Shown: positions 1 through 49,253 of the stretch, one piece after another | Numbering within the stretch: position 1 is the stretch's first letter | Layout of the letters: every line of letters starts with the position of its first letter | Source: an uncultured Helicobacteraceae bacterium | GTDB taxonomy: Bacteria; Campylobacterota; Campylobacteria; Campylobacterales; Helicobacteraceae | NCBI GenBank assembly: GCA_947588965.1 | Contig: CANQAN010000001.1 | Location: forward strand, 186,001-250,000 | Reading direction: 5' to 3' | DNA: 64,000 nt | The notes under the pieces: generated by a model | The model's database searches: none | The model's input: the letters and a program-made list of their open reading frames with translations, nothing else | Told to the model about the DNA's origin: nothing | Position numbers and translations under genes: made by a program

Positions 1-610
1 CCTCAAAGGTGTCAAACAAATACAAATCTCTGTGCGGGAAAAATTCATTGATTTTTCTTGCAAATTCCCCCTTATACACGCCACATTCTGCCACAGCACC
101 CTCCAGCCCTGCTTCATTTATGCGCTTTGCAAGAAGCTCTAAGCTCTTATAGCGCACAAAATCACGCGTATCCTTAACGCTCTCATTGCTAGAAAACTGC
201 ATTGTTACAGGGAAAAGTATGTTTCTTTGGCAATCTTTCAAAACCTCTGCAGTCAAATCCCAATTTAAAAACTCCACATAAGCGTTATTTAAAGATTCTG
301 TCAGTTCAGTGAAAAAGACATCATTTTCGTTATCCACGATAAATGCACAAGCCTTAGCACAATCCAAGCCCTCAACCCTCATTCTCTCTTTCACCACACT
401 CACATTGCCACTTGCAATAAGAAAAACATCAACTTCCAAGCCTTTTAGCTCCTCTATGCTCATTACAGAATAGCCTCTAAACTCCTTGATCTTTTGTGTA
501 TTAAAAGTATAGGGATTCACAAATCCCAGAATCTCAAAATGCGCAAAATCAATTTTCTCCATAACAACCTCTGCAATCGCACCCACACCAAACACAACAA
601 GCTTTTTCAT
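1..610 (-). CDS. TylF-type methyltransferase with N-terminal nucleotide-binding-like domain (partial)
   Basis: This gene is absent from the ORF track because it runs off the window. I translated the minus strand from the ATG at 610, and it stays open to base 1. It starts MKKLVVFGVGAIAEVV, a Rossmann-like glycine-rich strand resembling PglD-type N-domains. After about 165 residues comes AECGVYKGEFARKI followed by LYLFDTFEG, which resembles the SAM-binding start of the TylF/MycF sugar O-methyltransferase family. The start overlaps the stop of the upstream gene as ATGA, so it belongs to the same operon. The inferred role is O-methylation of a surface sugar. The C-terminal half is not visible. 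Confidence 0.7.
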   Translation of the reverse strand, partial: MKKLVVFGVGAIAEVVMEKIDFAHFEILGFVNPYTFNTQKIKEFRGYSVMSIEELKGLEVDVFLIASGNVSVVKERMRVEGLDCAKACAFIVDNENDVFFTELTESLNNAYVEFLNWDLTAEVLKDCQRNILFPVTMQFSSNESVKDTRDFVRYKSLELLAKRINEAGLEGAVAECGVYKGEFARKINEFFPHRDLYLFDTFE

Positions 611-1356
611 GCATTCCTCCCGCTCTCTCTTGCGACCACATAGACATCTCCTGCGATCTGTGGATAGATCTCACCCAGTCGCATAAAGGCCGCGATCATT
701 TGTGGATTCCAATGCGCTTGTATTTGCGCATTTGAAAGGGGCTTGAGCCAATATCCTCCTGTAGAGACAATCTCAAATCCCGCATTTTTAAACTCCGCCA
801 CAAAAGCATCCAAATCATAAATACGTCGATGCCCATGGAACATATCCGCCTCACTCATAGACTTCTCACTCTCCAAAAGTCCCATTTCTACCGCTGCTTG
901 ACGGTGTAGAGAGTGAGAGTTTGGCACAGCAGCAAAAATAATGCCTCCCCCCCCGAGACTATCACCCTTTTTGAGCCAATTTTTAACCAACTCCAAAATC
1001 TCTTTAGGATTCTCCACATGCTCTAAGACATGCCCCATAACAATCGCGCTATAGGATTTTTGAGGGCAAAATTCCTCAAAGAGAGCATTATGCACACGCA
1101 ATCCCTCAAATCTCTTTGAGAGATTCTCACAAAACACAGCACTCCCCTCTAAAACCTCTAATTCCTCAACAAACCCACACAAACGCTCCGTCATTACACC
1201 TTCAGCAGGACCCATTTCAAGCACAGCGCCACCCCTATAGAAACGTTTAAAAATCTCAAAACAATATTCAATCTCAAAGCCCGAAATTTCCCGCGCAGAA
1301 AGCGGATTATCATAATCTCTTGCGATATTTTCTAATCGTTGCTTTTCTGATTCCAT
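607..1356 (-). CDS. Class I SAM-dependent methyltransferase, poly-G tract in coding region
   Basis: This is a 249-residue methyltransferase with motif I around residues 40-50 (VLEMGPAEG), motif IV-like SAIVMGHVLEHVENP and a C-terminal GYWLKPLSNAQ. These are typical of Methyltransf_23-like enzymes in polysaccharide clusters. A run of 8 G on the coding strand encodes GGGG in KKGDSLGGGGIIFAAVPN, where relatives usually have a short KPGG turn. Slippage there would remove the C-terminal half. The current phase is open. It lies 1 nt after the FkbH-like gene and overlaps the next gene by 4 nt. The substrate is unknown; a sugar or acyl hydroxyl is inferred from context. Confidence 0.8.
   Translation of the reverse strand: MESEKQRLENIARDYDNPLSAREISGFEIEYCFEIFKRFYRGGAVLEMGPAEGVMTERLCGFVEELEVLEGSAVFCENLSKRFEGLRVHNALFEEFCPQKSYSAIVMGHVLEHVENPKEILELVKNWLKKGDSLGGGGIIFAAVPNSHSLHRQAAVEMGLLESEKSMSEADMFHGHRRIYDLDAFVAEFKNAGFEIVSTGGYWLKPLSNAQIQAHWNPQMIAAFMRLGEIYPQIAGDVYVVARESGRNA
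947..954 (-). repeat. Poly-G tract (8 G) in methyltransferase gene
   Basis: Eight C on the plus strand read as G on the coding strand, followed by AGG. It is in frame at present. It is the shortest tract of the set and is bounded by an A, so it may slip less than the others. Confidence 0.75.
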
Positions 1357-1357
1357 T

Positions 1358-3040
1358 TTAATTCCTTATTTTCAAACTCAATCCGCTCAAATCCAAGCAT
1401 TCTTGCGTGATTTGCAACACATTTTCTTTGATTCTCTGTGTCTTTAAAGTCTCTAGAAACTCCAAAAACGGCGCATTGCGCACACCCCTTTGGAATTCCA
1501 GCAAGATTCCCTTTGTCCCTAAAAACTCCAAAGCCAAAGCACAGGATTCAAAAAACAAAATCCTCTCCAGCTTCCTCCCAAGCGCACGACAACTTATGCA
1601 AAAGTCTTTAACCAGTACATTTTCACCCTCTCTCAATCCCACAAACACGCAAATAATTCCGCTCTCACTCAATTTGTCGCGCATAGCAACGGTAATAAGA
1701 CATGCATTTGCGCTCTCCATCCATCCCATCACTTCATTTTGTGTCGGTCGCGTGTAATTGCTCAAAAATTGATTTGTCTTATTTAAAAGCTCTGTGGCAC
1801 GAGGCACTGTTGCGCTGACATTGACACAAAATTCCAGCGCGATTTCTAATTTCTCAAAATACTCACGTTCTGAAAGCTCTGCAAACTCCGCTCTTATGCT
1901 GTTTGCTTGAATGTCCTTAGAGCGCAGAGCATCCTCTCTGTTTGTCGCACTTTTAAGCATTTGTGGAAACAAGCGCAAACGTCTCACCACCTCTAAAGGT
2001 GCCGTTGCAAGAAGTGTCTTAATGCCAAGAGTCCTGACATTTTCAATCTCTGCGGGATTATCATCAATAAACAGCACGGATTCTAAACCTATGTTAAGAT
2101 TCTTTGCTATCTCTACAATACCCTCTTTTTTGGGATTCCAACCAATATGTGCGCATGTAAAATCCTCCCATTTTAGAGCAAAATCCCTCCTTGCTTCAAA
2201 CATCTCTCTCACATCTGAAAGTTCGTTTTTAGAACAAAGGGCAAGCAAAAATCCTTGTGCCTTGAAGCGCAAAATCTCATTTTGCAAGAACGCATACTCC
2301 TCGTTGTATGTGAGCCCAAACACCCCATCTTCTCCTAAGATTCCACCATAGAGTGTATTGTCAAGATCTAAGATGAGAGCCTTAAGGCTTGGCAAGACAC
2401 AAGAAGGGATAAGAGACAAGCCCAAAATCTGCGCTAAACTCACACATGCCAGATTGCTTAAGCGCGTCCCTGTGATTTGAATTTTCACATCATCTAAAAG
2501 TGTGCTTTCTAATGTTTGACACTCTTGTATTTTTTGCGCTTCCCTTTGCAACCCTTTTATTCCGCGCATTTGCTCTCTCAACAACTCCCCCACACAAAAG
2601 ACCTGCACATCTCCTAAAATCGTGCATTGCTCCTTGAATCCCTCCCAATCCCTTGAAGTGATCTTATGTTTGCAAATCTCTAGCAAAATCACCAGAATCG
2701 GTGCCTTTGAAAGTCTGCGCAAAGACCCTATGCGCTCTAAGAGATAGGGCAGAACCCCCTCTGTGTGATAATTGTCCAAATCCACCCAAACAAGCTCTAA
2801 ATCGCCCTCTTTGAACCCCTCAAAACTCAATGTGTCATCATAACTGCTTAAAGAAAATCGCGCACTCAATCCCGCATAATGCAAAAAGGGATCAATAATG
2901 CTCAAAATCGGCTCAAAAGCGTGATTCCGATAGACATTAGCCCTTAGGATTCTATCCTCTTCGCCTCTCAAAGCACATTTTCTAGCGCATTCTAAGAGTT
3001 GCATTCTGGTCAAATTTTCTGCGAAGACATCACAATTCAT
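1358..3040 (-). CDS. FkbH-like HAD-superfamily protein
   Basis: This 560-residue protein has the HAD signature LILDLDNTLYGGILGEDG near residue 225 and FIDDNPAEIENVR about 90 residues later, followed by a GNAT-like C-terminal part (LLNKTNQFLSNYTR, then VKDFCISCRALGRKLE). This domain order is that of FkbH-like enzymes. In polyketide pathways these take a glycolytic three-carbon phosphate and load a glyceryl group onto a carrier protein. A carrier protein gene lies one gene upstream, so the same chemistry is inferred here, with the acyl product going to a surface sugar. Its start overlaps the VOC gene stop as ATGA. No poly-G tract is present. Confidence 0.85.
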   Translation of the reverse strand: MNCDVFAENLTRMQLLECARKCALRGEEDRILRANVYRNHAFEPILSIIDPFLHYAGLSARFSLSSYDDTLSFEGFKEGDLELVWVDLDNYHTEGVLPYLLERIGSLRRLSKAPILVILLEICKHKITSRDWEGFKEQCTILGDVQVFCVGELLREQMRGIKGLQREAQKIQECQTLESTLLDDVKIQITGTRLSNLACVSLAQILGLSLIPSCVLPSLKALILDLDNTLYGGILGEDGVFGLTYNEEYAFLQNEILRFKAQGFLLALCSKNELSDVREMFEARRDFALKWEDFTCAHIGWNPKKEGIVEIAKNLNIGLESVLFIDDNPAEIENVRTLGIKTLLATAPLEVVRRLRLFPQMLKSATNREDALRSKDIQANSIRAEFAELSEREYFEKLEIALEFCVNVSATVPRATELLNKTNQFLSNYTRPTQNEVMGWMESANACLITVAMRDKLSESGIICVFVGLREGENVLVKDFCISCRALGRKLERILFFESCALALEFLGTKGILLEFQRGVRNAPFLEFLETLKTQRIKENVLQITQECLDLSGLSLKIRN

Positions 3041-3567
3041 TTCTCAACAAACTCCACAAGCAAAGAATTTCTTAACATAACAAAGGCTATCTTGCGAAAA
3101 TAACGCGCCTCTTTTGGCTGGATAATCACCATAGCTTTACCCCCCCCCGCAGAAGTGGTAGAATGAGTGGAATCCACGACACTCTCTATCTTAGATTCCA
3201 CACTCTTTTCAAACCCACAGACAGCCTCAAAATCCGCACTAGATTTTTTAGCGCAAGAATCTAGTGCTTCAAACAATTCTTTTATGCTTGATTCAATGTT
3301 TTGTGTCTCATAGGCAAGGTGATACATTTTTGTGCGATTTTTGAGATAGCTTGTAAGCGGACCCTTTGGTGTGAGATTTTCTAAAATCTCAAGGCGATAG
3401 AGGGGATGTTTCTCGTCCTTAGGAATCAAAAAGATTCCGCGCACACCCACACTCTCGTCCTCAAACGTATCCTCACAGACAAATCCAAGCGCACGGAAAT
3501 AAAAAAGCTCTTCTTGCAAACTCCACGTAGCCACACCAATGTGATGAATGGGCAAATTCAAGGTCAT
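3037..3567 (-). CDS. VOC (glyoxalase/epimerase fold) protein with tract-bearing insertion
   Basis: The 176-residue product opens with LPIHHIGVATWSLQEELFYF, and HLAYETQNIE and RKIAFVMLRNSLLVEFVE carry the remaining VOC metal-site regions. Between the expected helix (ELFEAL) and the strand KAMVIIQPKEA there is a serine-rich stretch of about 40 residues (SCAKKSSADF to STTSAGGG) that I do not expect in this family. It holds a 9-G tract. Gain or loss of one G gives a stop within a few codons. The gene sits between ACP and FkbH genes with ATGA overlaps on both sides. It may act on the ACP-bound acyl group; the actual reaction is unknown. Confidence 0.75.
   Translation of the reverse strand: MTLNLPIHHIGVATWSLQEELFYFRALGFVCEDTFEDESVGVRGIFLIPKDEKHPLYRLEILENLTPKGPLTSYLKNRTKMYHLAYETQNIESSIKELFEALDSCAKKSSADFEAVCGFEKSVESKIESVVDSTHSTTSAGGGKAMVIIQPKEARYFRKIAFVMLRNSLLVEFVEK
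3140..3148 (-). repeat. Poly-G tract (9 G) in VOC gene
   Basis: The coding strand reads CTTCTGCG, then the G run, then TAAAGC. The current phase is open (SAGGGK). One extra G gives an immediate TAA, and one fewer gives TGA after about five codons. Confidence 0.85.
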
Positions 3568-3803
3568 CGCAAATGCTCTGTGATTTTTTCAATCAATTTC
3601 TTTTGCGAGGTGATTTCGTGCAACTCTGATTCTGAAAACTTCACATTAAACTCCTCCTCTATGCTCATAACAATATCAATATGCGCTAAGGAACTCCACC
3701 GCTCACACCCTTGCTGTGAAATGTCCGCATCCACACTCACTTCTATGCCCAGCACACTCTCTAGTATCTCACAGACTTTTTTTGAAATCTCTTTTTTGTC
3801 CAT
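3564..3803 (-). CDS. Acyl carrier protein
   Basis: This is a 79-residue acidic helical protein with a carrier-protein layout. Helix II begins at WSSLAHIDIVMSIEEEFNVKF. The usual phosphopantetheine site D-S-L is here S-S-L (Ser37-Ser38-Leu39), so the aspartate before the attachment serine is replaced. Many ACPs in polysaccharide clusters carry WDSLAHI at this place, which makes the alignment secure. It stands between a GNAT gene and the VOC and FkbH-like genes, so it probably carries the acyl unit made by FkbH rather than serving general fatty acid synthesis. It overlaps the VOC gene by ATGA. Confidence 0.85.
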   Translation of the reverse strand: MDKKEISKKVCEILESVLGIEVSVDADISQQGCERWSSLAHIDIVMSIEEEFNVKFSESELHEITSQKKLIEKITEHLR

Positions 3804-3812
3804 GAACTCTCC

Positions 3813-4388
3813 TTACAAACGATTTAAGAGCGACAAAACCACCCCTTTTGATTCCTCATAACTCTCCTTTGTGAAAAGCAAGACTTCCAAGCCCTCCTCC
3901 TCACACATTCCAACCCTCTTTGCGCCAAATTTCAAATGAAAGTTCAAAACCTCTCTGTTTTGCGGATAGAGGGTAAAGACATGCCTGTCATCGCATTTGA
4001 AAATCTCATAAAACGCCCTCTTTGTCAAAAAGTCCGATTCTAAAACCTGCAAAAAGCTCACTCCATCGCGCATAATCCACCGCCCAATCTCATAAAAGGC
4101 GAGATTATTGCGCAGAGCAAAGGCATTGTAAGTGGGATAAATGCTATTGACCCCTAGAGGATTCCCCTCTTTGTCCTCTATGACAAAATACCACTCATTG
4201 AGCTTTTGCTTGTAGTTTTCCATATATTTGATCTGCTTTTGTAGGTCATTTTCTTGTTTGTGTAAGAATCTTGATTTCTTCTCATCAGTGCGCAATTGCA
4301 AGATAAAAGCACTGTCACGCACCTCCGCTTCTCTTAAAACTATCGTTATCCCCTGTATTTTTGCAAAATTGTGCGCATTTCTCACCAT
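3813..4388 (-). CDS. GNAT-family N-acetyltransferase
   Basis: The product is about 191 residues starting from the ATG at 4388. The ORF track begins 11 codons earlier, but AAGGAGG lies 5 nt before this ATG and the family alignment starts near ITIVLREAEVRDSAFILQLR. The pattern VIEDKEGNPLGVNSIY and the C-terminal LNFHLKFGAKRVG fit RimJ/RimL- and PseH-like acetyltransferases. A likely job is acyl transfer to an amino sugar, possibly from the adjacent ACP. The upstream FemAB-like reading frame stops inside the start codon region (ATGGTGA), so the two are translationally coupled when that frame is open. Confidence 0.8.
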   Translation of the reverse strand: MVRNAHNFAKIQGITIVLREAEVRDSAFILQLRTDEKKSRFLHKQENDLQKQIKYMENYKQKLNEWYFVIEDKEGNPLGVNSIYPTYNAFALRNNLAFYEIGRWIMRDGVSFLQVLESDFLTKRAFYEIFKCDDRHVFTLYPQNREVLNFHLKFGAKRVGMCEEEGLEVLLFTKESYEESKGVVLSLLNRL

Positions 4389-5539
4389 GCAAACCTCCTT
4401 GCAGCATTTGCAAGATTCCAAGAATCCGCTAAATGCGCACGGTTTAAAAAGAATGGATTCAAACGTGACAAATTAACACAAGCTAAGAAATGCAAACCAA
4501 AATCAATAAAAAATAAAATATGAATAGTGAAAATGAAGTCTGTAGAAGTGGATTCTAATGATTCTGAAAATCTACCCCCCCCCCGCAGAGAGTTACTAGC
4601 AGGGAGTTCCCCCGCAAGAAGTTCGTAGAAATTATGCACAATCGTATGTCCACCGAAGCTTTCCTTTTGAAATATCAAACCCTCATTAAGAAATCTCCCC
4701 TCATTTTCTGTAGAGATTCCGAAGTCAAAGTATGTCTTACTTTGCGTATATTTGTCAATGAGCGTCTTAAGCAGGAGGTCTAGGGCTCCGATTTTTCTAC
4801 CACATTCATTTGTCGCCAAATATTGCGTGTGTACACAATTCTCATAGACAAAGAGTAAGCTCCCCGCTACAATCACTTCCTTGTGCTTGGCAAGATAGAG
4901 TATGATATTTTCTTTAAAACGTGAGTGAAGCAACCTCAACTCCGCCTCTGTATGCACAGCCATCACGCCATGCCGCTCCTGCAAGACAGCATTAAGAAGC
5001 TCTACAAAGCCCTTCATATCTGTGGATTCCTCTATGCTGACATCCTCTCTCTCTGCCTTTTTAACATTGCGTTTTTTGAGTTCATTAAGCCTCATGTTCT
5101 TATAACAAGTCGTGGAGCAATCCACCCTAAAGAGCTTCGCGCCATTTCTAAAGAGTGCGTAAGAATCCTCATTAGCAGGGCTTTTATGATAAATATAGGG
5201 AATACTCTTATAAATCAAACGTCTCATTCCTAACGTGCGCATATAATCCCGCAATAGCGCGAAGCAATCAAGCATTTTTGACTGGCGCATGGAATCCTGC
5301 GTGATAAATCCCCCAAAGGTTAGCCCCTGATGAGAGTATAGAGTATCTCCGCACACATTACAAGGCAGGAGTGCAAGAAGCTTATGCCCATCATAGAACA
5401 AAAGGGAATGATCGACAAATCTATCACTATGATAGTCCATATAATTCCGATCAAACATAAACAAGCCGTTTTTTGCCTCCTTATTGAAGCGATTCCAAAC
5501 TTCCTTGTCTCTTGTCTCATAGGGGACGATTCTTATCAT
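4382..5539 (-). CDS. FemAB-like GNAT acyltransferase with phase-dependent C-terminal tail
   Basis: Residues 1 to about 320 form a FemAB/Acetyltransf_6-like protein (LFMFDRNYMDYHSDRF, LYSHQGLTFGGF, TYFDFGISTENEGRFLNEGL). This family is common in nucleotide-sugar acylation and peptidoglycan branching. The domain appears complete at about NFYELLAGELPASN. A 10-G tract then encodes RGGG, and a further 63 codons follow, including a hydrophobic piece (FIFTIHILFFIDFGLHFLACV), ending inside the next gene's start. One more G gives an immediate TAG and one fewer gives a stop after about seven codons. The enzyme itself should survive every phase; the tail and the coupling do not. Confidence 0.75.
   Translation of the reverse strand: MIRIVPYETRDKEVWNRFNKEAKNGLFMFDRNYMDYHSDRFVDHSLLFYDGHKLLALLPCNVCGDTLYSHQGLTFGGFITQDSMRQSKMLDCFALLRDYMRTLGMRRLIYKSIPYIYHKSPANEDSYALFRNGAKLFRVDCSTTCYKNMRLNELKKRNVKKAEREDVSIEESTDMKGFVELLNAVLQERHGVMAVHTEAELRLLHSRFKENIILYLAKHKEVIVAGSLLFVYENCVHTQYLATNECGRKIGALDLLLKTLIDKYTQSKTYFDFGISTENEGRFLNEGLIFQKESFGGHTIVHNFYELLAGELPASNSLRGGGRFSESLESTSTDFIFTIHILFFIDFGLHFLACVNLSRLNPFFLNRAHLADSWNLANAARRFAW
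4575..4584 (-). repeat. Poly-G tract (10 G) at 3' end of FemAB-like gene
   Basis: The coding strand reads CTCTGCG, G run, TAGATTTTCAG. The present phase reads through a 63-codon tail to the downstream ATG; the other two phases stop at once or after a few codons. Confidence 0.85.
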
Positions 5540-6447
5540 CTCACAAACTCCGCAACCCCAAATCCATCTCTTCCCATGCCATTACCGCAATAAAACATAT
5601 ATTTTCTGCTTCCAACCTCCAAAAGCGCAGGATAGCAGAGCATTTGAGAATCAAACCCATCTTTAGATCTCTGCAGAGGGAAAAGCTCGTCATGCCTTTG
5701 CCAATAGATTCCATCGCTACTTGTCGCAAATCCCGATTTGTATTCTTTATCCAATGTATCAAGCGTGTAATACATCTCATAGCCACCCTGTGTGCGATAG
5801 ACCTTGGGGCGTCCGATTCTGTATTCATTCCCCACACATTGCACACAAGACACCCCATCTTTAGGGAAATTCACCCCGTCTTTTGATTCTGCATATTTAA
5901 TATCATAGCGCGGATAAGGAATCCCGCTAATCATCTCCCAATCATAAATCACACTATAGTAGATTCTAAACACACCCTTTTCATACAAAACACTATGCAA
6001 GCAGCGCCCAAACACACCCTCTGCACTCCTATCTAGCACAGGAGTCTCCTGCACTCTATGAAAGCTCTCTCCCCCATCTTCACTCACAGCAAGTCCGCTA
6101 AAGGCTAAGAATTTCACCTTTTGTGGAATCTGAAAAGCCACATAATACATATAAATGCGACTTCCCACGCGCAACACAGCGCCTAAAATCATTCCATTAT
6201 CATCAAAACAACCCTTTTTGCCGATATCTAGCGCGGGTTCTTTTGAGATTCTTAAGACATTCTTAGGATTCTGTGCTTCCACATCCACAAAGCCGATTCT
6301 TCCCACACCACTTTTATCTCTGAAGCTACAATAAATACGAATCACATCTTCATTCAGCAAAAAGGGTTCTGGCGTGAGCGCGGTATTATCGATCCAAGCA
6401 CTCGCGCCATTAGGGCAATAGACTAAGCCTCTCTTTTCCCAAGCCAT
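5536..6447 (-). CDS. Beta-propeller glycosidase-like protein
   Basis: The product is about 303 residues from the ATG at 6447, which overlaps the preceding stop as TAATG. Repeated blades with paired aromatic and D/G motifs (IYMYYVAF, FRIYYSVIYD, YEMYYTLDTLD, KYMFYCGNGMGRDGFG) and phrases such as SEDGGESFHRV and SSDGIYWQRHD are typical of five-bladed GH43/GH32/GH130-type propellers. There is no signal peptide, so it is probably cytoplasmic. Relatives occur in polysaccharide operons without a proven reaction. It might be a phosphorylase, a hydrolase or a non-catalytic fold; I cannot assign catalytic residues. Confidence 0.7.
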   Translation of the reverse strand: MAWEKRGLVYCPNGASAWIDNTALTPEPFLLNEDVIRIYCSFRDKSGVGRIGFVDVEAQNPKNVLRISKEPALDIGKKGCFDDNGMILGAVLRVGSRIYMYYVAFQIPQKVKFLAFSGLAVSEDGGESFHRVQETPVLDRSAEGVFGRCLHSVLYEKGVFRIYYSVIYDWEMISGIPYPRYDIKYAESKDGVNFPKDGVSCVQCVGNEYRIGRPKVYRTQGGYEMYYTLDTLDKEYKSGFATSSDGIYWQRHDELFPLQRSKDGFDSQMLCYPALLEVGSRKYMFYCGNGMGRDGFGVAEFVR

Positions 6448-7139
6448 TAGCACTTCCTCTCTTGTCTTATGTCCTCTTTAACTTTGCAAAATTGACGCGC
6501 AGGAATCTTTGATAGACTTGCAGGATTCCCCCTATAGATCGCATTTTCTTGCGTGTTTTTGTTAATCACGCTGCCAAGGGCTATGAAATTATCCTGCGCG
6601 ATTTTAATGTGATCAGCCACTGCGCAATTCACACCCAAAAAGCTATAAGATCCAATCTCACAATACCCGCTAATCACACAATGTGAAGTGATGAAACAAT
6701 GCTCTCTCACACAAGATCGATGTCCTAAGTGATTCCCACTCCACATCGTAACATTGTCGCAAACCTTTGTAAAAGGCTGCAAGACATTATGCTCTAAGAT
6801 GAAGCAATTCTCACCAATCTCCACATTGTGCCACACGAAGGCCTTTGAGCTCACATAACTTGCTAGTGTGTATCCTCTCTCTTTTAATGACAAAAACAAG
6901 CGCGTCCTTTCTCTATTTAATTGTCCATTTCCAAGCGCGACAAATGCGCTAAACTCCTCTGCAGGATAAATCCCCTCTAGTTCCTCTAAGGCAATCAAGG
7001 GTAAATCCAAAAATGCCCCCCCCCGCAGATATTCTCTAGAAACAGCAAATCCTACGACACGATAGTCTGAATCATGCGTGAAATACTCATACGCACAATG
7101 CGCTATCTCTCCCGCACCGACAATAACGAGCTTTTTCAT
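6447..7139 (-). CDS. PglD-like sugar O/N-acyltransferase (left-handed beta-helix)
   Basis: The product is about 230 residues, taking the ATG at 7139 after GGGAGG rather than the track start 8 codons earlier. It begins KKLVIVGAGEIAHCAYEYF (nucleotide-binding N-domain) and continues in hexapeptide repeats (VEIGENCFILEHNVLQ, VTMWSGNHLGHRSCV, GSYSFLGVNCAVAD). A 9-G tract encodes RGGAF in the N-domain, where relatives usually have a charged loop before LPLI. Loss of frame would delete the whole beta-helix. The likely role is acetylation of an amino-dideoxy sugar nucleotide. It ends in a 1-nt overlap with the propeller gene. Confidence 0.8.
   Translation of the reverse strand: MKKLVIVGAGEIAHCAYEYFTHDSDYRVVGFAVSREYLRGGAFLDLPLIALEELEGIYPAEEFSAFVALGNGQLNRERTRLFLSLKERGYTLASYVSSKAFVWHNVEIGENCFILEHNVLQPFTKVCDNVTMWSGNHLGHRSCVREHCFITSHCVISGYCEIGSYSFLGVNCAVADHIKIAQDNFIALGSVINKNTQENAIYRGNPASLSKIPARQFCKVKEDIRQERKC
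7016..7024 (-). repeat. Poly-G tract (9 G) in PglD-like gene
   Basis: The coding strand reads TATCTGCG, G run, CATTTTTGG. It is in frame now. Minus one G yields TGA after roughly ten codons, and plus one G runs about 20-30 codons to TAG. Confidence 0.85.
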
Positions 7140-7172
7140 ACTCTCACCTCCCTTACTTTGCAACTCACAACC

Positions 7173-7925
7173 TCAACTCTCAATCTTGCAATTCACAAAA
7201 ATCTCTGCGCCAAAACGCGGACAAAACTCAATCATTCCCTCTAATCCTCTCAACAACTCCTCATTAATAACCCCCTCTTTTAAGAGTAAAGACATTTTGG
7301 CATGGTTGAAAGGCTTGAGAAAATAACTTCCCTGCTCTATCATTTTAATGCCCCCCCCCCGCGCGGAAGAAATAAACTCCACAAGAGATTCTTGTGTAAA
7401 GGCACTGTGTTGTTGAAGTTTTTTTGCGCTTGGCGTGAGATCGCCAAGATTCAAAAGACCGGATTTATAAGCCCAGAGGAGATGAAAGCTAAGGGCATTA
7501 GGGACATTGATATGCAAGATTGTCTCTGTACTGCAGAGTTCAAAGACAGATTTCAAAAACTCCTTAGGCTCACGCACTTCATGCAAAAGTGAGCTTAGAA
7601 TGATAAAATCAAAGGAATGATGTTTTAATACTTGAATTTGATTTTCAAGGAAGTCATTGATAATCTTAACATTAACAAGCCCTTTGCAATCCTCACGCGC
7701 AATCTTTACAAAAACCTCTGAAGGCTCTACAATCACAAGCTGCTCAAAGTCTCTGGTATGATTAGCAATACAGCTCTCACCACATCCGATCTCTAAAATG
7801 CGCTTTGCCCTGTGTGATTCAAGGAATCCTAAGATTTTCTCTCGCCTTATGCGCACCATTGTTTTCTCAAACTCATAATCCGCACTCAAATAATCCTGCG
7901 TATATTTCTCAATGTCTCTTTGCAT
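7173..7925 (-). CDS. Class I SAM-dependent methyltransferase, poly-G tract near the 3' third
   Basis: The 250-residue product has motif I RILEIGCGESCIA, FDFIILSSLLHEVREP and a C-terminal GSYFLKPFNHAKM closely matching the GYWLKPLSNAQ region of the methyltransferase at 607-1356. Where that paralog has EFKNAGFEIV, this one has EFISSARGGGIKMI, so the 10-G tract sits in the position of a normal AGF turn with a few extra residues. Both alternative phases stop within a few codons and remove the last 65 or so residues. It starts with AAGGAG, 17 nt inside the long phase of the formyltransferase tail. The substrate is unknown. Confidence 0.8.
   Translation of the reverse strand: MQRDIEKYTQDYLSADYEFEKTMVRIRREKILGFLESHRAKRILEIGCGESCIANHTRDFEQLVIVEPSEVFVKIAREDCKGLVNVKIINDFLENQIQVLKHHSFDFIILSSLLHEVREPKEFLKSVFELCSTETILHINVPNALSFHLLWAYKSGLLNLGDLTPSAKKLQQHSAFTQESLVEFISSARGGGIKMIEQGSYFLKPFNHAKMSLLLKEGVINEELLRGLEGMIEFCPRFGAEIFVNCKIES
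7351..7360 (-). repeat. Poly-G tract (10 G) in second methyltransferase gene
   Basis: The coding strand reads TTCCGCGC, G run, CATTAAAATG. It is in frame now (ARGGGIK). One extra G gives CAT TAA, and one fewer gives TGA after three codons. Confidence 0.85.
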
Positions 7926-8949
7926 TTTTTCTCCTTATCTCATAAGAATCACGTACAGAATTTTGCAAAGCACTACACAGAAAAATCCCATAAAATAGAA
8001 GCAAAAGCGCAGATCGCGCCTCTATTAACAATAAAAAGAATAAAGGAAATTTTAAAAGGAGTGTCATAACAAATCCCACGCGGTATTCTTGCGGAGATTC
8101 TGATAAATTATGCCCCCCCCCCCGCAGAGGACTAGAAGATTCTAGAGCCTTGTAAGCTTTGATTTGGAATCCGTCAATTCCTGATAGAATGAAGTGAGTC
8201 GCGGATTCCAAAAGGCAATTCCGCCCCACAAACACATCAGTCAAAACAGACTTTTCTATCTCTACATCGCACACTTTTGGGAGTTGATATTCTTTAAAAA
8301 TAAATGCTCGAAGCTGATTGTGAATCTCAAAACTCGTCTTTTGCAAATCAACACAAAGACGTGAAAAGTCAAGAGATTTCCTGCTATAATAACTCCCCGC
8401 AAAGCCCTGTTTAACAGCACTAAAAGTCTCATTAAGTAGGGATTCCACACTCTCACTAAACAAAAGCGTCGCATAATGCAAATATTTGAAATACAAATCC
8501 CGCGCACTCTCATTAAGCCCGATTTCAAAACTCTTTTGAGACACAATGGCGCCCGTGTCTATGCCGGAATCTATCATATGCAAGGTTACGCCACTCTCGC
8601 TTTCACCGCATAAAATCGGCATGATAGAGGTATAGACGCCCTTGAATTTTGGGAGTTTTGAAAAATGCAGATTAAAGAGCCTCTTGCTAAGGAAATTTTG
8701 TGGCTTGATAATTCTATCAAACTCTAGAGATAAAAAGAGCAAATGCGGAATCTCATAGGCTTCTTCTAAAGTGAGGATTCTCAAATGATTCTCTCTTGCA
8801 AAGCCTAAAAATGAGGGTTGCCAAGAATCCACACCGCTATCACTTGCATTAGGAATCACAGCAATCTCTGTAGGACTCAAGCGATTTAGCAAGATGCGCA
8901 CGGCATTAACGGCAATCGCGTTTTTCCCCGCTACGCACACCCTAAGCAT
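7909..8949 (-). CDS. Formyltransferase family protein (sugar N-formyltransferase candidate) with phase-dependent tail
   Basis: Starting at the ATG at 8949 (AGGAG just upstream), about 275 residues form a formyltransferase. It shows NLHFSKLPKFKGVYTSIMPI, the Asn-x-His region followed by the proline-rich loop, and VTLHMIDSGIDTGAIVSQKSF with the catalytic aspartate region. This is the layout of dTDP-3- or 4-amino-sugar N-formyltransferases. An 11-G tract then leads into a 67-codon tail with a hydrophobic stretch (VGFVMTLLLKFPLFFLLLIEA) that ends 17 nt inside the next gene. Plus one G gives GCA TAA at once, and minus one stops after about 15 codons. Confidence 0.8.
   Translation of the reverse strand: MLRVCVAGKNAIAVNAVRILLNRLSPTEIAVIPNASDSGVDSWQPSFLGFARENHLRILTLEEAYEIPHLLFLSLEFDRIIKPQNFLSKRLFNLHFSKLPKFKGVYTSIMPILCGESESGVTLHMIDSGIDTGAIVSQKSFEIGLNESARDLYFKYLHYATLLFSESVESLLNETFSAVKQGFAGSYYSRKSLDFSRLCVDLQKTSFEIHNQLRAFIFKEYQLPKVCDVEIEKSVLTDVFVGRNCLLESATHFILSGIDGFQIKAYKALESSSPLRGGGHNLSESPQEYRVGFVMTLLLKFPLFFLLLIEARSALLLLFYGIFLCSALQNSVRDSYEIRRKNAKRH
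8113..8123 (-). repeat. Poly-G tract (11 G) at 3' end of formyltransferase gene
   Basis: The coding strand reads CCTCTGCG, G run, CATAATTTATCAG. The present phase opens the long tail that reaches the next start codon. Confidence 0.85.
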
Positions 8950-9104
8950 AGCTACTCCTGCTTTTAAGGCTAACAAAAGTTTTTTGCGCATGTTTTTTGA
9001 AAGGATTCTGCGTTTGTGATCTTTGCGCAGTTTTTGAAGTTCTTAGGAGTTTGGAAATGTTTAAAATGCTATGAGATTCTAAGGGGAATCCCATAATTAT
9101 AAAA

Positions 9105-9653
9105 TTATGCCCCCCCCCCCCGCACAGAAACAGAAGACTCACTCAAAGTCAAATCTGTATCTTTTACACTCTCTTGTTTGGTGGATTTTGCATACGCTTG
9201 AGGAAGTGCACGTGAAATGGTGCGAATCTCTGTAAAAACCTGCGTAAAATCAGGCACATCATTCATAACAACCGCCCCCGCGCCAATCATAGCACCCCTG
9301 CCAATCGTAACACCCGGTCCTATCACAGCCCCCGCGCCGATACTCGCACCATCCAAGATAGAAGTGCGCAAAAGAGGCTTATTGTAGTCCTTTGATCGTG
9401 GGAATTTGTCATTAGCAAAGCTTACTTGAGGACCAATAAACACATTAGTGCCAATCTCCACACCATCCCACACTTGTACACCACACTTTATAGTCACATT
9501 ATCTCCGATTCTCACATCATTTTCAATGAAGCAATGCGCACAGATATTGCAATTCTCACCAATCACGGCCCCGGGCAACACCACACAAAACTGCCAAATA
9601 TTCGTGCCTTCCCCGATATTTTGACTCTGCACATCTGCTAATTTGTGAATCAA
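9105..9653 (-). CDS. Left-handed beta-helix sugar N-acetyltransferase (FdtC/QdtC/WbpD-like)
   Basis: The 182-residue protein is built of hexapeptide repeats ([58 protein letters not shown]) with [16 protein letters not shown], the usual active-site loop of dTDP-3-amino-sugar or UDP-amino-sugar acetyltransferases. The start is a TTG at 9653, 7 nt after AGGGA. It fits as the 3-N-acetyltransferase for a QdtA product. After a serine-rich end ([14 protein letters not shown]) a 12-G tract leads straight to TAA. With 11 G the frame would continue 55 codons to TAG at 8942, overlapping the formyltransferase ATG. This junction is therefore in its short phase. Confidence 0.85.
9110..9121 (-). repeat. 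Poly-G tract (12 G) at 3' end of acetyltransferase gene
   Basis: The coding strand reads TTTCTGTGCG, G run, CATAATTTTATA. Twelve G put the gene in the phase that stops at once. Eleven G would open the frame seen in the track as ORF 8942..9142. Confidence 0.85.
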
Positions 9654-9742
9654 TTTAACTTCCCTGCAAGATTTATTCTTTGAAATTTAGAAATTATCTC
9701 TAAAATTTGCTTATTTTTATATTATTTTGCATTTGAGGGAGT
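9654..9742 (-). promoter_or_regulatory. AT-rich gap, possible internal promoter for acetyltransferase gene
   Basis: This 89-bp gap is the longest in the glycan operon. On the minus strand it holds TATAAAAAT and GATAATTT stretches that could serve as -10 elements, and ends with the AGGGA of the acetyltransferase gene. The evidence is composition and position only. Confidence 0.3.
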
Positions 9743-10147
9743 TTATTCTTGTGCTTGTGATTTCACAAAAGCCAAAAATTCCTCATAATCTCTTATATAA
9801 TCGCTCTCATCATAATAATCGCTTGCCAAAATCATTAAAACACAATCGCTAGAGAAATTCCGCATCTCACGCCATATGTTTTTGCCAATATACAGCCCGA
9901 TTGCGGGATTATCAAGGAGAACAACCTTCCTCTCTCTCCCATCATCCAACACAAACTCACACGAGCCACAGATGGCCACTGCCACTTGCTCTAACTGCTT
10001 ATGTGAGTGGAATCCACGCATTTTATAGGATTCATAGATGTAATACACGCGCTTGATTTCAAAGGGGACATTCTTATGCGACTCACAGCTCACCAATTTG
10101 CCACGATCATCGCCCAAAACTTTCCAACTTAAGAGTTTGTAGTCCAT
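9743..10147 (-). CDS. dTDP-4-keto-6-deoxyhexose 3,4-ketoisomerase (QdtA/FdtA cupin)
   Basis: The 134-residue cupin has RVYYIYESYKMRGFHSHKQLEQ, the R-G-x-H-x-H-K signature of FdtA/QdtA, then GSCEFVLDDG and the C-terminal YYDESDYIRDYEEFLAF. These enzymes shift the keto group of dTDP-4-keto-6-deoxyglucose from C4 to C3 before transamination. RmlA and RmlB two to three genes upstream supply the substrate. The start codon follows directly on the stop of the upstream cupin's long phase (TAGATG). QdtA and FdtA products differ in C4 stereochemistry, which I cannot read from sequence, so no symbol is assigned. Confidence 0.85.
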   Translation of the reverse strand: MDYKLLSWKVLGDDRGKLVSCESHKNVPFEIKRVYYIYESYKMRGFHSHKQLEQVAVAICGSCEFVLDDGRERKVVLLDNPAIGLYIGKNIWREMRNFSSDCVLMILASDYYDESDYIRDYEEFLAFVKSQAQE

Positions 10148-10675
10148 CTAAATCACCCTTGCAGATTCAAAGCCAGAATATTGCAAATCGTGACTTTTGT
10201 GCAAATTTTGTAAAAAAGCGCAAAATTTGCAAATAAGATTTAAAAAAACGGGATTCAAATAAAGGAGAATTACCACCCCCCCCCCGCACTCTTTCAAAAA
10301 GACCTCATAGTCATAAATATACTCTTTAGCACTATAAGAAGTGTTTGTTAGCACGAGCAGTACGCAGTCATTTGAGAAATCAAACATTTCTTTCCATACC
10401 ATTTTGTCTAAATATAAGGCTCTAAGCGGACTATCAAGCAAAAATTCCTGCCTCACCACCCCATCACTCACACTCACGCGACAGCTTCCATTCACCGCAA
10501 CCATGAGAAATTCAGAATCCCTGTTTGCATGCTGTCCTCTTATGACATCGTCACTTGTATGATAGAGATAGAACACGCGACAGACTGTAAATGGGCAGTT
10601 TTTGTCCCTCTCAAAAGCCACAAGAATGGAATTTTTACTCTCAAAACATTGCAAATCAAGCATTTTCCAGCGCAT
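10148..10675 (-). CDS. Second QdtA/WxcM-like cupin with phase-dependent tail
   Basis: The start is set at ATG 10675 (MRWKMLDLQCFES), which aligns with the start of the neighbouring cupin; the track ORF is 52 codons longer and reads through the upstream remnant out of frame. About 130 residues match the neighbour end to end (VFYLYHTSDDVIRG, GSCRVSVSDG, YIYDYEVFLKE). The signature is RGQHANR instead of RGxHxHK, so the second histidine is Asn. A 10-G tract after FLKE opens a 41-codon tail (VVILLYLNPVFLNLICKF...) that stops exactly one base before the next ATG. One fewer G stops at once; one more runs on in a third frame. Confidence 0.75.
   Translation of the reverse strand: MRWKMLDLQCFESKNSILVAFERDKNCPFTVCRVFYLYHTSDDVIRGQHANRDSEFLMVAVNGSCRVSVSDGVVRQEFLLDSPLRALYLDKMVWKEMFDFSNDCVLLVLTNTSYSAKEYIYDYEVFLKECGGGVVILLYLNPVFLNLICKFCAFLQNLHKSHDLQYSGFESARVI
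10276..10285 (-). repeat. Poly-G tract (10 G) at 3' end of second cupin gene
   Basis: The coding strand reads GAGTGC, G run, TGGTAATTC. In the present phase translation ends at TAG immediately before the ATG of the other cupin. One fewer G gives TGG TAA. Confidence 0.85.
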
Positions 10676-10964
10676 AAGCTTCCTCACTCTTGCACGATTT
10701 TCCACACCAAACGTGCAGGATTCCCACAAATGAGGGAATTTTTTCAAAGCTCTTTGTCGCCACACTTCCCGCGCCGACAACGCAACCCATGCCAAGATGC
10801 ACACCATCGCCAATAGCGATTTGTCCGCCATTACTGCTTAGAAAAAGCGTTGGAGACACAATGTGAAAATTGCCCTTCAAGCGCACATTTGAGAGAATCT
10901 TCGCAAACCAAAAAATCCGAAAGCGCAAAAATTTGTTTGTAAGCTTAATGAATCTTGCTCTCAA
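10656..10964 (-). pseudogene. Internally deleted hexapeptide acyltransferase remnant
   Basis: About 102 residues run from a TTG at 10964 that overlaps the rmlB stop (TTGA). The first 60 or so residues look like the entry of a WbbJ-type acyltransferase (NFHIVSPTLFLSSNGG, QIAIGDGVHLG). They are followed directly by what is normally the far end of the beta-helix (GAGSVATKSFEKIPSF). The central hexapeptide coils and any active-site histidine are missing, which suggests an internal in-frame deletion. The frame is still open, and its stop overlaps the start of the second cupin by 20 nt, so it may persist as a translated coupling element. It could also be a short functional protein, but I think that unlikely. 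Confidence 0.6.
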
Positions 10965-11989
10965 AACTCCTCCCTGTGCTTTTCTAAATACCACTGAAGT
11001 GTCTTTTTGATTCCACTCTCAAAGCTCTCTTTTGGCTTGAATCCAAGCTCTCTGGCAATTTTGCTGCCATCAATCGCATAGCGTCTGTCATGCCCAGCTC
11101 TGTCTTCTACAAATGTGATTTGTGAAGCATAAGAAAGTCCATCTTCGCGCGGAATCTCCGCGTCTAAAAGCGCACAAATCTCCTTTATGAGATCCAGATT
11201 CTTTTTCTCACAATTCCCGCCAATGACGAAATGCGCACCAAAAAAGTCTGAAAAAAGCACCTTCTCAATGGCTAACACATGATCTCCGACAAACAGCCAA
11301 TCGCGCACATTAAGCCCATCACCATAAGTGGGAATATTCTCGCCGTTTAAAGCCTTGCGAATCACTGTTGGAATGAGCTTCTCTCCATGTTGCTTAGGAC
11401 CATAATTATTAGAGCAATTTGTCAATAAAGTATTCAACCCATAAGTCTTATGAAAACTGCGCACAAGAAAATCGCTTGAGGCCTTAGAGGCAGCATAGGG
11501 CGAGTTTGGCGCATAGGGTGAATCCTCATTGAACTTCCCACTCTCACCCAAGCTTCCAAAAACCTCATCGGTGCTTATATGATAGAATCTGTGAGATTCT
11601 TTTGTTTTCTTGCAACAATGTGGGGCATCAAACCACGCTAAATAGGCATTATGCAAGAGATTAAACGTGCCGCCAACATTAGTTTTTACAAAGGCATTAG
11701 GATTGACAATAGAGTTATCCACATGGGATTCAGCGGCAAAGTGAAGTACGCTATCAATCTCATATTTTTCAAAAATCTCTTTCAAAAGCGCACTATCGCG
11801 TATATTTCCCTTAATAAACACATAATTTGCGTCATTTGGAATGTCCTTGAGATTCTCTAAACTTCCAGCATAGGTGAGTAAATCAAGATTAATCACGCGA
11901 ATTTCGGGGTGTTTTTGCACGAAGTACTCCACAAAATTACTCCCGATAAATCCTGCTCCACCTGTAATTAAAAGATTCTTTATCATCAT
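10961..11989 (-). CDS. rmlB: dTDP-glucose 4,6-dehydratase
   Basis: The 342-residue extended SDR enzyme has the NAD-binding GGAGFIGSNFVEYF at the N-terminus, HFAAESHVDNSI, the catalytic Thr-Asp-Glu in YHISTDEVFGSL and the YxxxK pair in SPYAASKASSDFL. It converts dTDP-glucose to dTDP-4-keto-6-deoxyglucose in the cytoplasm. It overlaps rmlA by 4 nt. RmlC and RmlD are not in the window, and the cupins are ketoisomerase-like, so the pathway probably leads to a 3-amino-3,6-dideoxyhexose rather than rhamnose. Confidence 0.95.
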   Translation of the reverse strand: MMIKNLLITGGAGFIGSNFVEYFVQKHPEIRVINLDLLTYAGSLENLKDIPNDANYVFIKGNIRDSALLKEIFEKYEIDSVLHFAAESHVDNSIVNPNAFVKTNVGGTFNLLHNAYLAWFDAPHCCKKTKESHRFYHISTDEVFGSLGESGKFNEDSPYAPNSPYAASKASSDFLVRSFHKTYGLNTLLTNCSNNYGPKQHGEKLIPTVIRKALNGENIPTYGDGLNVRDWLFVGDHVLAIEKVLFSDFFGAHFVIGGNCEKKNLDLIKEICALLDAEIPREDGLSYASQITFVEDRAGHDRRYAIDGSKIARELGFKPKESFESGIKKTLQWYLEKHREEF

Positions 11990-12864
11990 AACTCCATTTC
12001 CACAATCTCGCGCAAATACCTGCCATAACCTGATTTTTCTAGCATTTTTGCCCTTTTTAAAAGCATTTCTTTGTCAATCCAACCATTATGGAAAGCAATC
12101 TCTTCTAAACACGCCACTTTCTGCCCCTGTCGCAATTCTATCGTCTGCACGAAACTTCCCGCATCTAAAAGGCTGTCATGTGTACCGGTATCCAACCACG
12201 CAAAGCCTCTTCCTAAGGCTTGATTGCGCAATTTTCCCTGCCGCAAGAATGCGTTATTGACATCAGTAATCTCCAACTCTCCCCGCGCACTAGGTTTGAG
12301 GGACTTTGCAATCTCAATGGCACTTTGCGGATAGAAATACAAGCCCGTTGCGATAAAATTACTCTTAGGATTCTGCGGTTTTTCCTCAAGTCTCACCACT
12401 CTCCCGCTTTTATCAAACTCCACAACTCCGAAATGTCGCGGTTCCTTCACGCGATAAGAAAAAATACTCGCACTTCCTTGCTCTGCGAACTGCGCCGCCT
12501 TTTGTAACATTTCAGAAAAACCCTGTCCATAAAAAACATTATCGCCTAAAATATAAGCAAACGCACTCTTTCCTACAAATTGCTCTGCTAGAATCAATCC
12601 ATGCGCCAATCCATCGGGGGAATCTTGCACACAGAAGCTAAGATTCATTCCAAATTCTTCGCCTTTTCCAAAAATCCTTTGAAAGTTCGGAGTGTCCTGC
12701 GGTGTAGAGATAATCAGCACATCGCGGATTTTTGCTAGCATCAGCACAGAGAGCGGATAATAAATCATGGGCTTATCATACAGAGGCAAAAGCTGCTTAC
12801 ACACACCTAATGTCGTCGGATACAGTCGCGTCCCACTCCCTCCTGCTAAAACAATCCCTTTCAA
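11986..12864 (-). CDS. rmlA: Glucose-1-phosphate thymidylyltransferase
   Basis: The 292-residue nucleotidyltransferase has the signature GIVLAGGSGTRLYPTT, KQLLPLYDKPMIYYPL, YILGDNVFYGQGF and WLDTGTHDSLLDAG, which is typical RmlA length and order. It makes dTDP-glucose from dTTP and glucose-1-phosphate, the entry to the dTDP-sugar branch. The start is a TTG at 12864 with only a weak TAGG upstream. It lies 19 nt after the SPOR gene, so transcription may come from the upstream housekeeping genes. Confidence 0.95.
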   Translation of the reverse strand: MKGIVLAGGSGTRLYPTTLGVCKQLLPLYDKPMIYYPLSVLMLAKIRDVLIISTPQDTPNFQRIFGKGEEFGMNLSFCVQDSPDGLAHGLILAEQFVGKSAFAYILGDNVFYGQGFSEMLQKAAQFAEQGSASIFSYRVKEPRHFGVVEFDKSGRVVRLEEKPQNPKSNFIATGLYFYPQSAIEIAKSLKPSARGELEITDVNNAFLRQGKLRNQALGRGFAWLDTGTHDSLLDAGSFVQTIELRQGQKVACLEEIAFHNGWIDKEMLLKRAKMLEKSGYGRYLREIVEMEL

Positions 12865-43167: not shown

Positions 43168-44130
43168 CTAATGCACTCCAAATCTCTCTTTGCGCATTCT
43201 GTCAAAATTCTGAAGCGCTTGAATGTTGGCTTGACATTCTTGCTCATATTCTAAGAATTCTTTGATTTTAGGACGTAATTTCTCATCGCTTAGAGAGTCC
43301 AAATAGCTTAAGAGATTGTTGCGCACTCTTAAATACATCTCAAGAGATGTCCATAGGAAGACGATCTGCCTGAAATATTCCCACATATCGCGCCAAAACA
43401 AAAGACTATCAAAACTCTGCTTGAGTGAATCTTTAGAACTAAACAATCCACTTCCACTGTAGCGATAGACGGATCCCACTTTAGAGCTGTGATAGGCCTT
43501 GCCCTGCGAGAGGGCTAAGAAATTTCTAAAGCTATCGGCACGACAAGATTGTCGCATTCTCTCCGAAGAGGGATTTTGAAGTTTAGAGAGATTGTCCTTT
43601 AATATCGTGCTTCTGAAAAATGAGCTGGAAGTGTGTCCCATAATTGCCCCCCCCCCCGCACAGAAGTGAGAGTAGTCGCAGACACAATCATTAGGATAAT
43701 CCACATAGATTTTTTCTTCTGTGTTGGATTTAAGAAGTGTTTTTTCTTGATAGCTTGTGAAGTCTCTGTGAGACTCTAAGAAAGTTATGGCATCTTGGAT
43801 TTTTGTTTTGCTAATCCAATAGTCATCGGGATCGAGGACGGTGAAGTATTTTGATTTGATAAGCGCATACATTCTATAGATTTGATGAGCGAGGCCTTGA
43901 TTTTCTTTTGTTTCAAGGAGTTTAATGCAAGGATTCTTGCTTTGATATTCTTTGACAATCTCCACGCTTTTATCCTTAGAGGCATCATCGGCAATAAGAA
44001 TCTCATAGGGAATATCTGTCTCTTGCATGAGGATAGAATCTAGTGTCTCTTTGAGTGTGGTTTCTTTATTATAAAGTGGCACAAGAATCGTTAAGAGGGG
44101 ATTTGTTTGTCTTTTTGTCTGCTTTGGCAT
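43168..44130 (-). CDS. Family 2 glycosyltransferase, phase-variable (copy A)
   Basis: The product is about 320 residues from ATG 44130, which has AGGAG 5 nt upstream; the track start is a GTG two codons earlier. GT-A fold motifs are TILVPLYNKETTLKETLDSIL, EILIADDASKDKSVEIV and FTVLDPDDYW, the nucleotide-sugar and metal DxD region. The 11-G tract encodes CAGGGAIMG at about residue 160, between the catalytic N-half and a helical C-half. It is in frame at present. The donor and acceptor sugars are unknown. It lies 30 nt downstream of the epimerase gene, reads against the HIT-YciI unit, and is indistinguishable from copy B by eye. Confidence 0.88.
   Translation of the reverse strand: MPKQTKRQTNPLLTILVPLYNKETTLKETLDSILMQETDIPYEILIADDASKDKSVEIVKEYQSKNPCIKLLETKENQGLAHQIYRMYALIKSKYFTVLDPDDYWISKTKIQDAITFLESHRDFTSYQEKTLLKSNTEEKIYVDYPNDCVCDYSHFCAGGGAIMGHTSSSFFRSTILKDNLSKLQNPSSERMRQSCRADSFRNFLALSQGKAYHSSKVGSVYRYSGSGLFSSKDSLKQSFDSLLFWRDMWEYFRQIVFLWTSLEMYLRVRNNLLSYLDSLSDEKLRPKIKEFLEYEQECQANIQALQNFDRMRKERFGVH
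43647..43657 (-). repeat. Poly-G tract (11 G) in glycosyltransferase copy A
   Basis: The coding strand reads CTTCTGTGCG, G run, CAATTATGGG. It is in frame. Both slipped phases run roughly 15-20 codons and stop, leaving only the N-terminal half. Confidence 0.88.
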
Positions 44131-44159
44131 CAACACTCCTTTATGTGACTTGTCGCACT

Positions 44160-49239: not shown

Positions 49240-49253
49240 CAACACTCCTTTAT

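Follow-up and report, generated by a model that had tools for sequence, protein, structure and literature searches.

What would an FkbH-like enzyme and an acyl carrier protein (ACP) contribute to an operon for a deoxythymidine diphosphate (dTDP)-activated sugar? The FkbH family is best known for its role in polyketide-like pathways (methoxymalonyl and tetronate biosynthesis), and in a 64,000-nucleotide stretch of DNA from an uncultured Helicobacteraceae bacterium (GenBank assembly GCA_947588965.1, contig CANQAN010000001.1, positions 186,001 to 250,000; hereafter, the window), a member of the family stands together with an ACP, a VOC metalloenzyme, and a GNAT protein among sugar genes. The initial annotation had read this ACP-FkbH-VOC-GNAT module as a possible acyl-donor line for a surface sugar. 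All four genes are present where it had placed them, on the minus strand:

1358-3040, minus strand: FkbH; TIGR01686 at 302 bits (cut-off 146.65); an N-terminal domain, a HAD domain, and a GNAT-like C-terminal domain.
3037-3567, minus strand: VOC metalloenzyme, a proposed glyceryl-ACP 2-epimerase; Pfam Glyoxalase_4 above cut-off; metal set H9/E60/H83/E172.
3140-3148, minus strand: G9 tract within the VOC gene, in frame (ON) in the window.
3564-3803, minus strand: ACP; PF00550 at 27.5 bits (cut-off 20.8); W-S-S-L site with Ser38.
3813-4388, minus strand: GNAT, a proposed N-acyltransferase from glyceryl-ACP to a dTDP-3-amino sugar; FdhC (5kta) at E 2e-14; adjoins the ACP in relatives, with GNAT-VOC fusions elsewhere.

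The block is tightly packed and transcribed in the order GNAT, ACP, VOC, FkbH, with 4-base overlaps at the ACP/VOC and VOC/FkbH junctions, a spacing of 9 bases between GNAT and ACP, and a single base between FkbH and the methyltransferase gene that follows it (MT2). It forms part of an operon that extends from RmlA (12864) to beyond the window start, where the last gene encodes a fusion ending in a TylF-type methyltransferase. We assign a probability of roughly 0.7 to the reading of these genes as an acyl-donor line for a surface amino sugar; judged from the sequences, the most likely product would be an N-glyceryl, perhaps O-methylated, dTDP-3-amino-3,6-dideoxyhexose (of the quinovose type, Qui3N, or the fucose type, Fuc3N) for a surface glycan. 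The earlier interpretation is, overall, partly supported. Such a line would account genetically for the glyceryl and methylglyceryl groups found on bacterial surface sugars, the biosynthesis of which is not explained in the open PubMed Central (PMC) text searched, and because its parts are small and probably soluble, the pathway could be tested in vitro.

Conservation of the Cassette Beside Sugar Genes

The tie between the acyl-donor set and the sugar operon is borne out by its recurrence, as ACP-FkbH-VOC-GNAT is found as a conserved unit beside dTDP-3-amino-sugar genes in unrelated phyla. Genomes G015, G027, and G038 keep the order formyltransferase-GNAT-ACP-VOC-FkbH-MT2 beside FdtA pairs, and G022 keeps formyltransferase-GNAT-ACP-VOC-FkbH plus extra genes. 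A profile scan of GTDB genomes for FkbH returned 80 loci. A VOC gene lies near FkbH in 23 of the 30 loci with an FkbH of at least 200 bits (the long-FkbH relatives) compared with 2 of the 50 others, and an ACP gene in 29 of the 30 compared with 5 of the 50; because the loci were ranked by similarity and the neighbors were sought with the window proteins, this comparison is biased toward close relatives of the query, and the Fisher p-value for the VOC gene (7e-12) is descriptive only.

Beyond Helicobacter and Campylobacter, the cassette occurs in Gastranaerophilales, Elusimicrobiales, Clostridia, Mixta, Cohnella, and one strain of Escherichia coli. Its frequent neighbors in other genomes are rmlA/rmlB, a 3,4-ketoisomerase, and a QdtB-type aminotransferase, and the loci outside Campylobacterota that have dTDP-sugar genes include those of Mixta, Cohnella, Elusimicrobiales, Mailhella, and Clostridia. 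In Mixta and Elusimicrobiales, a single protein of 326-328 amino acids (aa) combines Acetyltransf_3 with Glyoxalase_4, a GNAT-VOC fusion that is also present in G114 (judged by eye). In E. coli MARGA_3 (L129), galF and gnd flank the set, which is accompanied by rfbBADC and by genes for a sugar 3,4-ketoisomerase and a DegT aminotransferase; this compact cassette in the O-antigen locus turned up in 1 genome among 5,426 of the species. The sugar structure of this O-antigen was not found. Searches of open PMC text yielded nothing on FkbH linked with O-antigen, and only polyketide and unrelated papers on FkbH with dTDP; the main text of Hafnia and Proteus O-antigen papers and of an Acinetobacter K-locus paper has no FkbH or ACP entry, and PMC13130089 does not mention the cassette.

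The distribution is nevertheless patchy, with FkbH in 18 of 98 relatives and in 2 of 19 genomes of the genus, as might be expected of a degenerate remnant or of functionless hitchhiking genes. We regard that explanation as extremely unlikely, given the open frames, the overlapping genes, the invariant active-site residues, and the conserved synteny. As a separate observation, stop codons interrupt FkbH at one locus (L042; G047:C1:2010171-2012664); pieces of the ACP and VOC genes persist in that genome.

FkbH and the Acyl Carrier Protein

FkbH/OzmB-type enzymes are glyceryl transferase-phosphatases that work with an ACP in polyketide pathways, and by family membership the window FkbH would take the glyceryl group of 1,3-bisphosphoglycerate, strip its phosphate, and load the small ACP. 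The window resembles those systems in the TIGR01686 family, the HAD residues, and the small ACP; unlike them, it has no polyketide synthase in the operon, a longer FkbH with an N-terminal domain, GNAT and VOC partners, and a sugar context. In an alignment of 29 homologs, FkbH residues D225, D227, S270, K304, D326, D327, and Cys484 are invariant, with S270 and K304 assigned as the HAD Ser and Lys by position. The confident AlphaFold model (predicted local distance difference test, pLDDT, 90.6) has BF1531 (3slr) as its best PDB match, and the other matches are HAD phosphatases and GNAT acetyltransferases. The ACP site reads W-S-S-L-A-H-I, and Ser38 is invariant in an alignment of nine ACPs. The genome encodes two matches to phosphopantetheinyl transferases, one AcpS-like and the other longer and Sfp-like.

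The acyl group had initially been proposed to be of glyceryl or lactyl type. Of the two, glyceryl is the likelier: FkbH enzymes are suppliers of glyceryl, and we noticed no reductase among the operon genes. Lactyl was accordingly set aside as the main product.

Given the best-known role of the family, FkbH and the ACP could also come from a polyketide-like pathway of the methoxymalonyl or tetronate type, standing beside sugar genes by chance. Proteins of the β-ketoacyl-ACP synthase III (KAS III) type adjoin FkbH in some relatives, and a type II cluster resembling those for aryl polyenes is present in the genome, so that the absence of a polyketide synthase noted at the outset applies to the operon and not to the genome. 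However, family scans of the operon proteins found no ketosynthase (KS) or acyl-CoA dehydrogenase, the type II cluster lies on another contig and has its own ACPs, and the association with dTDP-sugar genes recurs across phyla; we consider a polyketide origin very unlikely.

The type II cluster itself (aryl-polyene or flexirubin-like; L161, G000:C2:139500-151600) contains two ACPs, two KS matches, and AMP-ligase-like, ketoreductase-like, dehydratase-like, LolA-like, and MMPL-like genes, and an Sfp-type phosphopantetheinyl transferase match lies near it.

The GNAT Protein and the dTDP-3-Amino-Sugar Pathway

The proposed setting in a dTDP-sugar operon is confirmed by four genes, the first two of them scoring above their family cut-offs:

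11986-12864, minus strand: RmlA, glucose-1-phosphate thymidylyltransferase; TIGR01207 at 450 bits.
10961-11989, minus strand: RmlB, dTDP-glucose 4,6-dehydratase; TIGR01181 at 432 bits.
10148-10831, minus strand: FdtA1, 3,4-ketoisomerase; PF05523; most like C. jejuni WlaRA (5tpv); C10 tract at 10276-10285, near the domain end.
9743-10147, minus strand: FdtA2, 3,4-ketoisomerase; PF05523; Arg at the FdtA His95 position (C4-retaining, Qui3N type).

Arg takes the place of His95 when FdtA2 is aligned to FdtA (2pa7), a replacement associated with C4-retaining, quinovose-type ketoisomerases (PMC2943079). FdtA1 and its closest relative WlaRA, which is labeled as a TDP-fucose-3,4-ketoisomerase, have an H-A-N motif in common. 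With one ketoisomerase of the Qui3N type and one like WlaRA, both Qui3N and Fuc3N routes are therefore plausible for this operon.

The operon has no aminotransferase gene. A DegT search of the genome recovered eight full-length aminotransferases, one of which (G000:C7:76046-77074) shares 72% identity with an aminotransferase encoded downstream of the corresponding operon in G015 and 61% with its E. coli MARGA_3 counterpart. Among solved structures, it most resembles 7n63, 5u1z, and QdtB (3frk), and it is preceded by a gene for a family 2 glycosyltransferase (GT2), as in G015. Since RmlA, RmlB, and the FdtA pair are encoded in the operon and a QdtB-type aminotransferase elsewhere, the dTDP-3-amino-sugar pathway is, by its predicted enzymes, complete in the genome but split between contigs. 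By the known chemistry of these families, the enzymes found would together yield dTDP-Qui3N and/or dTDP-Fuc3N.

The ketoisomerases, the N-formyltransferase of the operon, and the aminotransferase all match the C. jejuni WlaR-type enzymes (WlaRA, 5tpv; WlaRD, 4lxq) and entries 7n63, 7n67, and 7n7a. Those entries cover the sugar and its formylation, whereas the ACP-FkbH-VOC-GNAT line is additional here.

A phmmer search of the PDB with the GNAT protein gave FdhC as the sole match to E 0.1, with residues 13-184 of 192 aligned. This nearest solved relative is a dTDP-Fuc3N N-(3-hydroxybutanoyl)transferase, and the similarity, together with the GNAT-VOC fusions, suggests that the GNAT would transfer the acyl group carried by the ACP to the amino group at C3 of the dTDP sugar. 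Comparable structures are known, including amide-linked glyceric acid on 4-amino-quinovose (Qui4N) and 7-N-glyceroyl pseudaminic acid in Tannerella (PMC9912281).

Possible Methylation and the Campylobacter jejuni Precedent

The glyceryl group, or the sugar, may be O-methylated by two S-adenosylmethionine (SAM)-type methyltransferases at the end of the operon, the first of which is kept after FkbH in G015, G027, and G038:

607-1356, minus strand: SAM methyltransferase MT2; Methyltransf_23; C8 tract, in frame.
2-610, minus strand: N-terminal 203 aa of a 332-aa fusion with a terminal TylF-type methyltransferase; PF05711; completed at L001:18612-19610.

C. jejuni offers a precedent for a surface sugar that bears a methylated glyceric acid. 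The flagellin of strain NCTC 11168 carries a pseudaminic acid derivative with di-O-methylglyceric acid, with which the homopolymeric-tract gene Cj1295 is associated (PMC3068675); Cj1302 is an fkbH-domain gene, and Cj1301 is annotated as an epimerase (PMC7099621). Cj1301 is probably a VOC protein, because the order ACP-methyltransferase-VOC-FkbH is found in Campylobacter genomes G315, G348, G374, and G385, of the same genus as C. volucris (G086). The Cj1295-Cj1302 locus and the window are alike in having an FkbH gene, an "epimerase," a glyceric-acid modification (proposed, in the window), and a homopolymeric-tract control gene. They differ in the acceptor, a nonulosonic acid on flagellin in C. 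jejuni as against dTDP-3-amino-sugar genes here; in the KAS III-type genes that adjoin FkbH there and are missing here; and in the tract, which lies in Cj1295 there and in the VOC gene here. Through the proposed pathway, the flagellin modification of C. jejuni would be connected with a cassette that occurs in several phyla and in one E. coli O-antigen locus.

The VOC Protein and Its Homopolymeric Tract

The closest fold neighbor of the VOC model is a Ni glyoxalase (glyoxalase I), followed by methylmalonyl-CoA epimerases, and H9, E60, H83, and E172, the four metal-ligand positions, are kept in complete homologs across phyla. We rejected the assignment as a methylmalonyl-CoA epimerase: the score against TIGR03081 is 42.1 bits, under the cut-off of 114.95, and the E43 base is replaced by Gly44, the counterpart of position 43 in the E43Q entry 6xbs; all 25 VOCs have Gly at this site. 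The likeness to methylmalonyl-CoA epimerase and Ni glyoxalase I comprises the best fold matches, weak sequence matches, and the four metal-ligand positions; besides the lost base, the VOC differs in that its second ligand is Glu and not Gln. This substitution gives an H/E/H/E set, that of E. coli glyoxalase I. Two carboxylates bound to the metal could act from opposite sides of an enediolate, an arrangement that would suit 2-epimerization of an α-hydroxyacyl thioester, and in the proposed pathway the VOC would act on the α-hydroxyacyl-S-ACP, most likely by inverting C2.

A run of 9-16 G (in the coding orientation) occupies one site in 11 of 11 tract-bearing VOC homologs examined, ten of them from Helicobacteraceae (the window included) and one from C. 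volucris. In two of them (the window and L037), the conserved VOC tail is in frame, and in the other nine it is not, although homopolymer lengths in draft assemblies may err, which makes the on or off state of any single genome provisional and leaves the shared position of the tract unaffected. Because the tract is at the same site in all of these homologs and only two are in frame, the VOC looks phase-variable, as had been proposed; in the off frame, the metal ligand E172 is lost. Four other Campylobacter genomes encode complete VOCs without the tract. In a Gastranaerophilales VOC (L074:9532-9927), a G9 run occupies the Helicobacter site, out of frame, by shared transfer or convergence.

Slippage in the G tract would turn the VOC on and off and alter the acyl group, not the sugar itself. 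We propose, tentatively and with more doubt than confidence, that the VOC is a glyceryl-ACP 2-epimerase and the tract a stereochemical switch, with L-glyceryl placed on the amino sugar in the on state and D-glyceryl in the off state. If so, the surface would vary by the mirror-image chemistry of one small substituent, with no change in sugar, linkage, or mass, and in the surface-glycan loci of other phyla, where the same enzyme is fused to the acyltransferase, it would lock in the configuration. To our knowledge, a VOC that inverts C2 would be the first stereochemical phase-variation switch, and one invisible to ordinary mass spectrometry.

Alternative Roles for the GNAT and VOC Proteins

Several observations weigh against the proposed pathway or parts of it. 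The Pfam match of the GNAT is weak (21 bits, below cut-off), and FdhC is a CoA-thioester enzyme, drawing its acyl group from CoA, whereas here an ACP and FkbH adjoin the GNAT. The VOC is without the second catalytic Glu (E43 in the Streptomyces coelicolor methylmalonyl-CoA epimerase), and epimerization is not assured. The one C. jejuni genome found (L055) has the cassette without a VOC, so this protein is not always needed. Cj1302 is tied to di-O-methylglyceric acid by locus only, the gene tested being Cj1295 (PMC3068675). Finally, the same amino group could be used by other enzymes of the operon, a WlaRD-like formyltransferase and further acyltransferases:

7909-8991, minus strand: dTDP-3-amino-sugar N-formyltransferase, WlaRD type; PDB 7n7a at 314 bits, WlaRD (4lxq) at 304 bits; C11 tract.
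9105-9653, minus strand: left-handed beta-helix acyltransferase, possibly QdtC-like; Hexapep repeats; C12 tract past the conserved domain.
6447-7163, minus strand: NeuD/PglD-like acyltransferase; TIGR03570 at 164.6 bits; C9 tract, in frame.

With these enzymes encoded in the same operon, the sugar could instead be N-formylated or N-acetylated by the formyltransferase and the beta-helix acyltransferases, in which case the GNAT would be an ordinary acetyltransferase, consistent with its weak PseH match, and FkbH and the ACP would serve another product. This is improbable, as the GNAT adjoins the ACP in G015, G027, G038, and G022 and is fused to the VOC elsewhere, and the E. coli MARGA_3 set, which has no formyltransferase, yet keeps FkbH-ACP-GNAT/VOC with amino-sugar genes.

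A stronger contender, though still somewhat short of even odds, keeps the same acyl-donor line and gives the VOC a task other than epimerization: it would either catalyze a different glyoxalase-type reaction on the group borne by the ACP or only stabilize the GNAT-ACP complex; the off state would then mean no or slow acylation, not the other stereoisomer. Its probability overlaps with that of the epimerase pathway, as the two share sugar synthesis, glyceryl loading, and transfer by the GNAT. The glyoxalase I-like metal set, the Ni glyoxalase as top fold match, the missing epimerase base, the fusion with the GNAT, and the C. jejuni cassette without a VOC are all in keeping with such a task. On the other hand, an alternative substrate is not apparent, the metal site is retained in all complete homologs, which argues against a purely structural role, and the weak NCBIfam match is to methylmalonyl-CoA epimerase.

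Other Operon Genes and Tracts

Three further genes complete the operon in the window:

5536-6453, minus strand: GH130-like protein; PF04041, weak.
7173-7925, minus strand: SAM methyltransferase MT1; Methyltransf_31/11/25; C10 tract, in frame.
4382-5539, minus strand: FemAB-like GNAT-fold protein; PF13480; C10 tract at 4575-4584, past the conserved domain.

The initial annotation had included the FemAB-like protein in the acyl line and had it vary in phase along with the VOC. Neither claim is supported for this gene: it is absent from G015 and from the stretch of G038 that was read, and we rejected it as a member of the line. On/off switching was likewise rejected, as the tract is outside the region conserved in homologs; it starts at nucleotide 955 of the gene, and the homologs align only to nucleotides 927-930 (about residue 311), some 25 bases short of it. 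The tract of the beta-helix gene is also past the aligned region, and those of the formyltransferase and FdtA1 genes are at the region end. The MT2, MT1, and NeuD-like tracts are in frame and inside the aligned region.

Such tracts are concentrated in the operon. C runs of 9 bases match 21 times in the window, where 0.11 would be expected, a number far above chance; of the 10 runs of at least 8 bases, 8 fall in the sugar operon. Within positions 947-10285, eight C runs of at least 8 bases occur in the operon, and most are followed by GCAG, GCGC, or GCAC, as if by repeated insertion of a tract-bearing element.

Approximately 9-13 kb past the operon end, L001:6473-9379 encodes sulfotransferase-like, methyltransferase-like (with a GGG motif), and adenosine 5'-phosphosulfate (APS) kinase-like genes. 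Elsewhere in the window, positions 43168-44136 and 48277-49266 hold near-identical GT2 genes, each with a C11 tract, that flank about 4 kb with GalE-like and aminotransferase-like genes.

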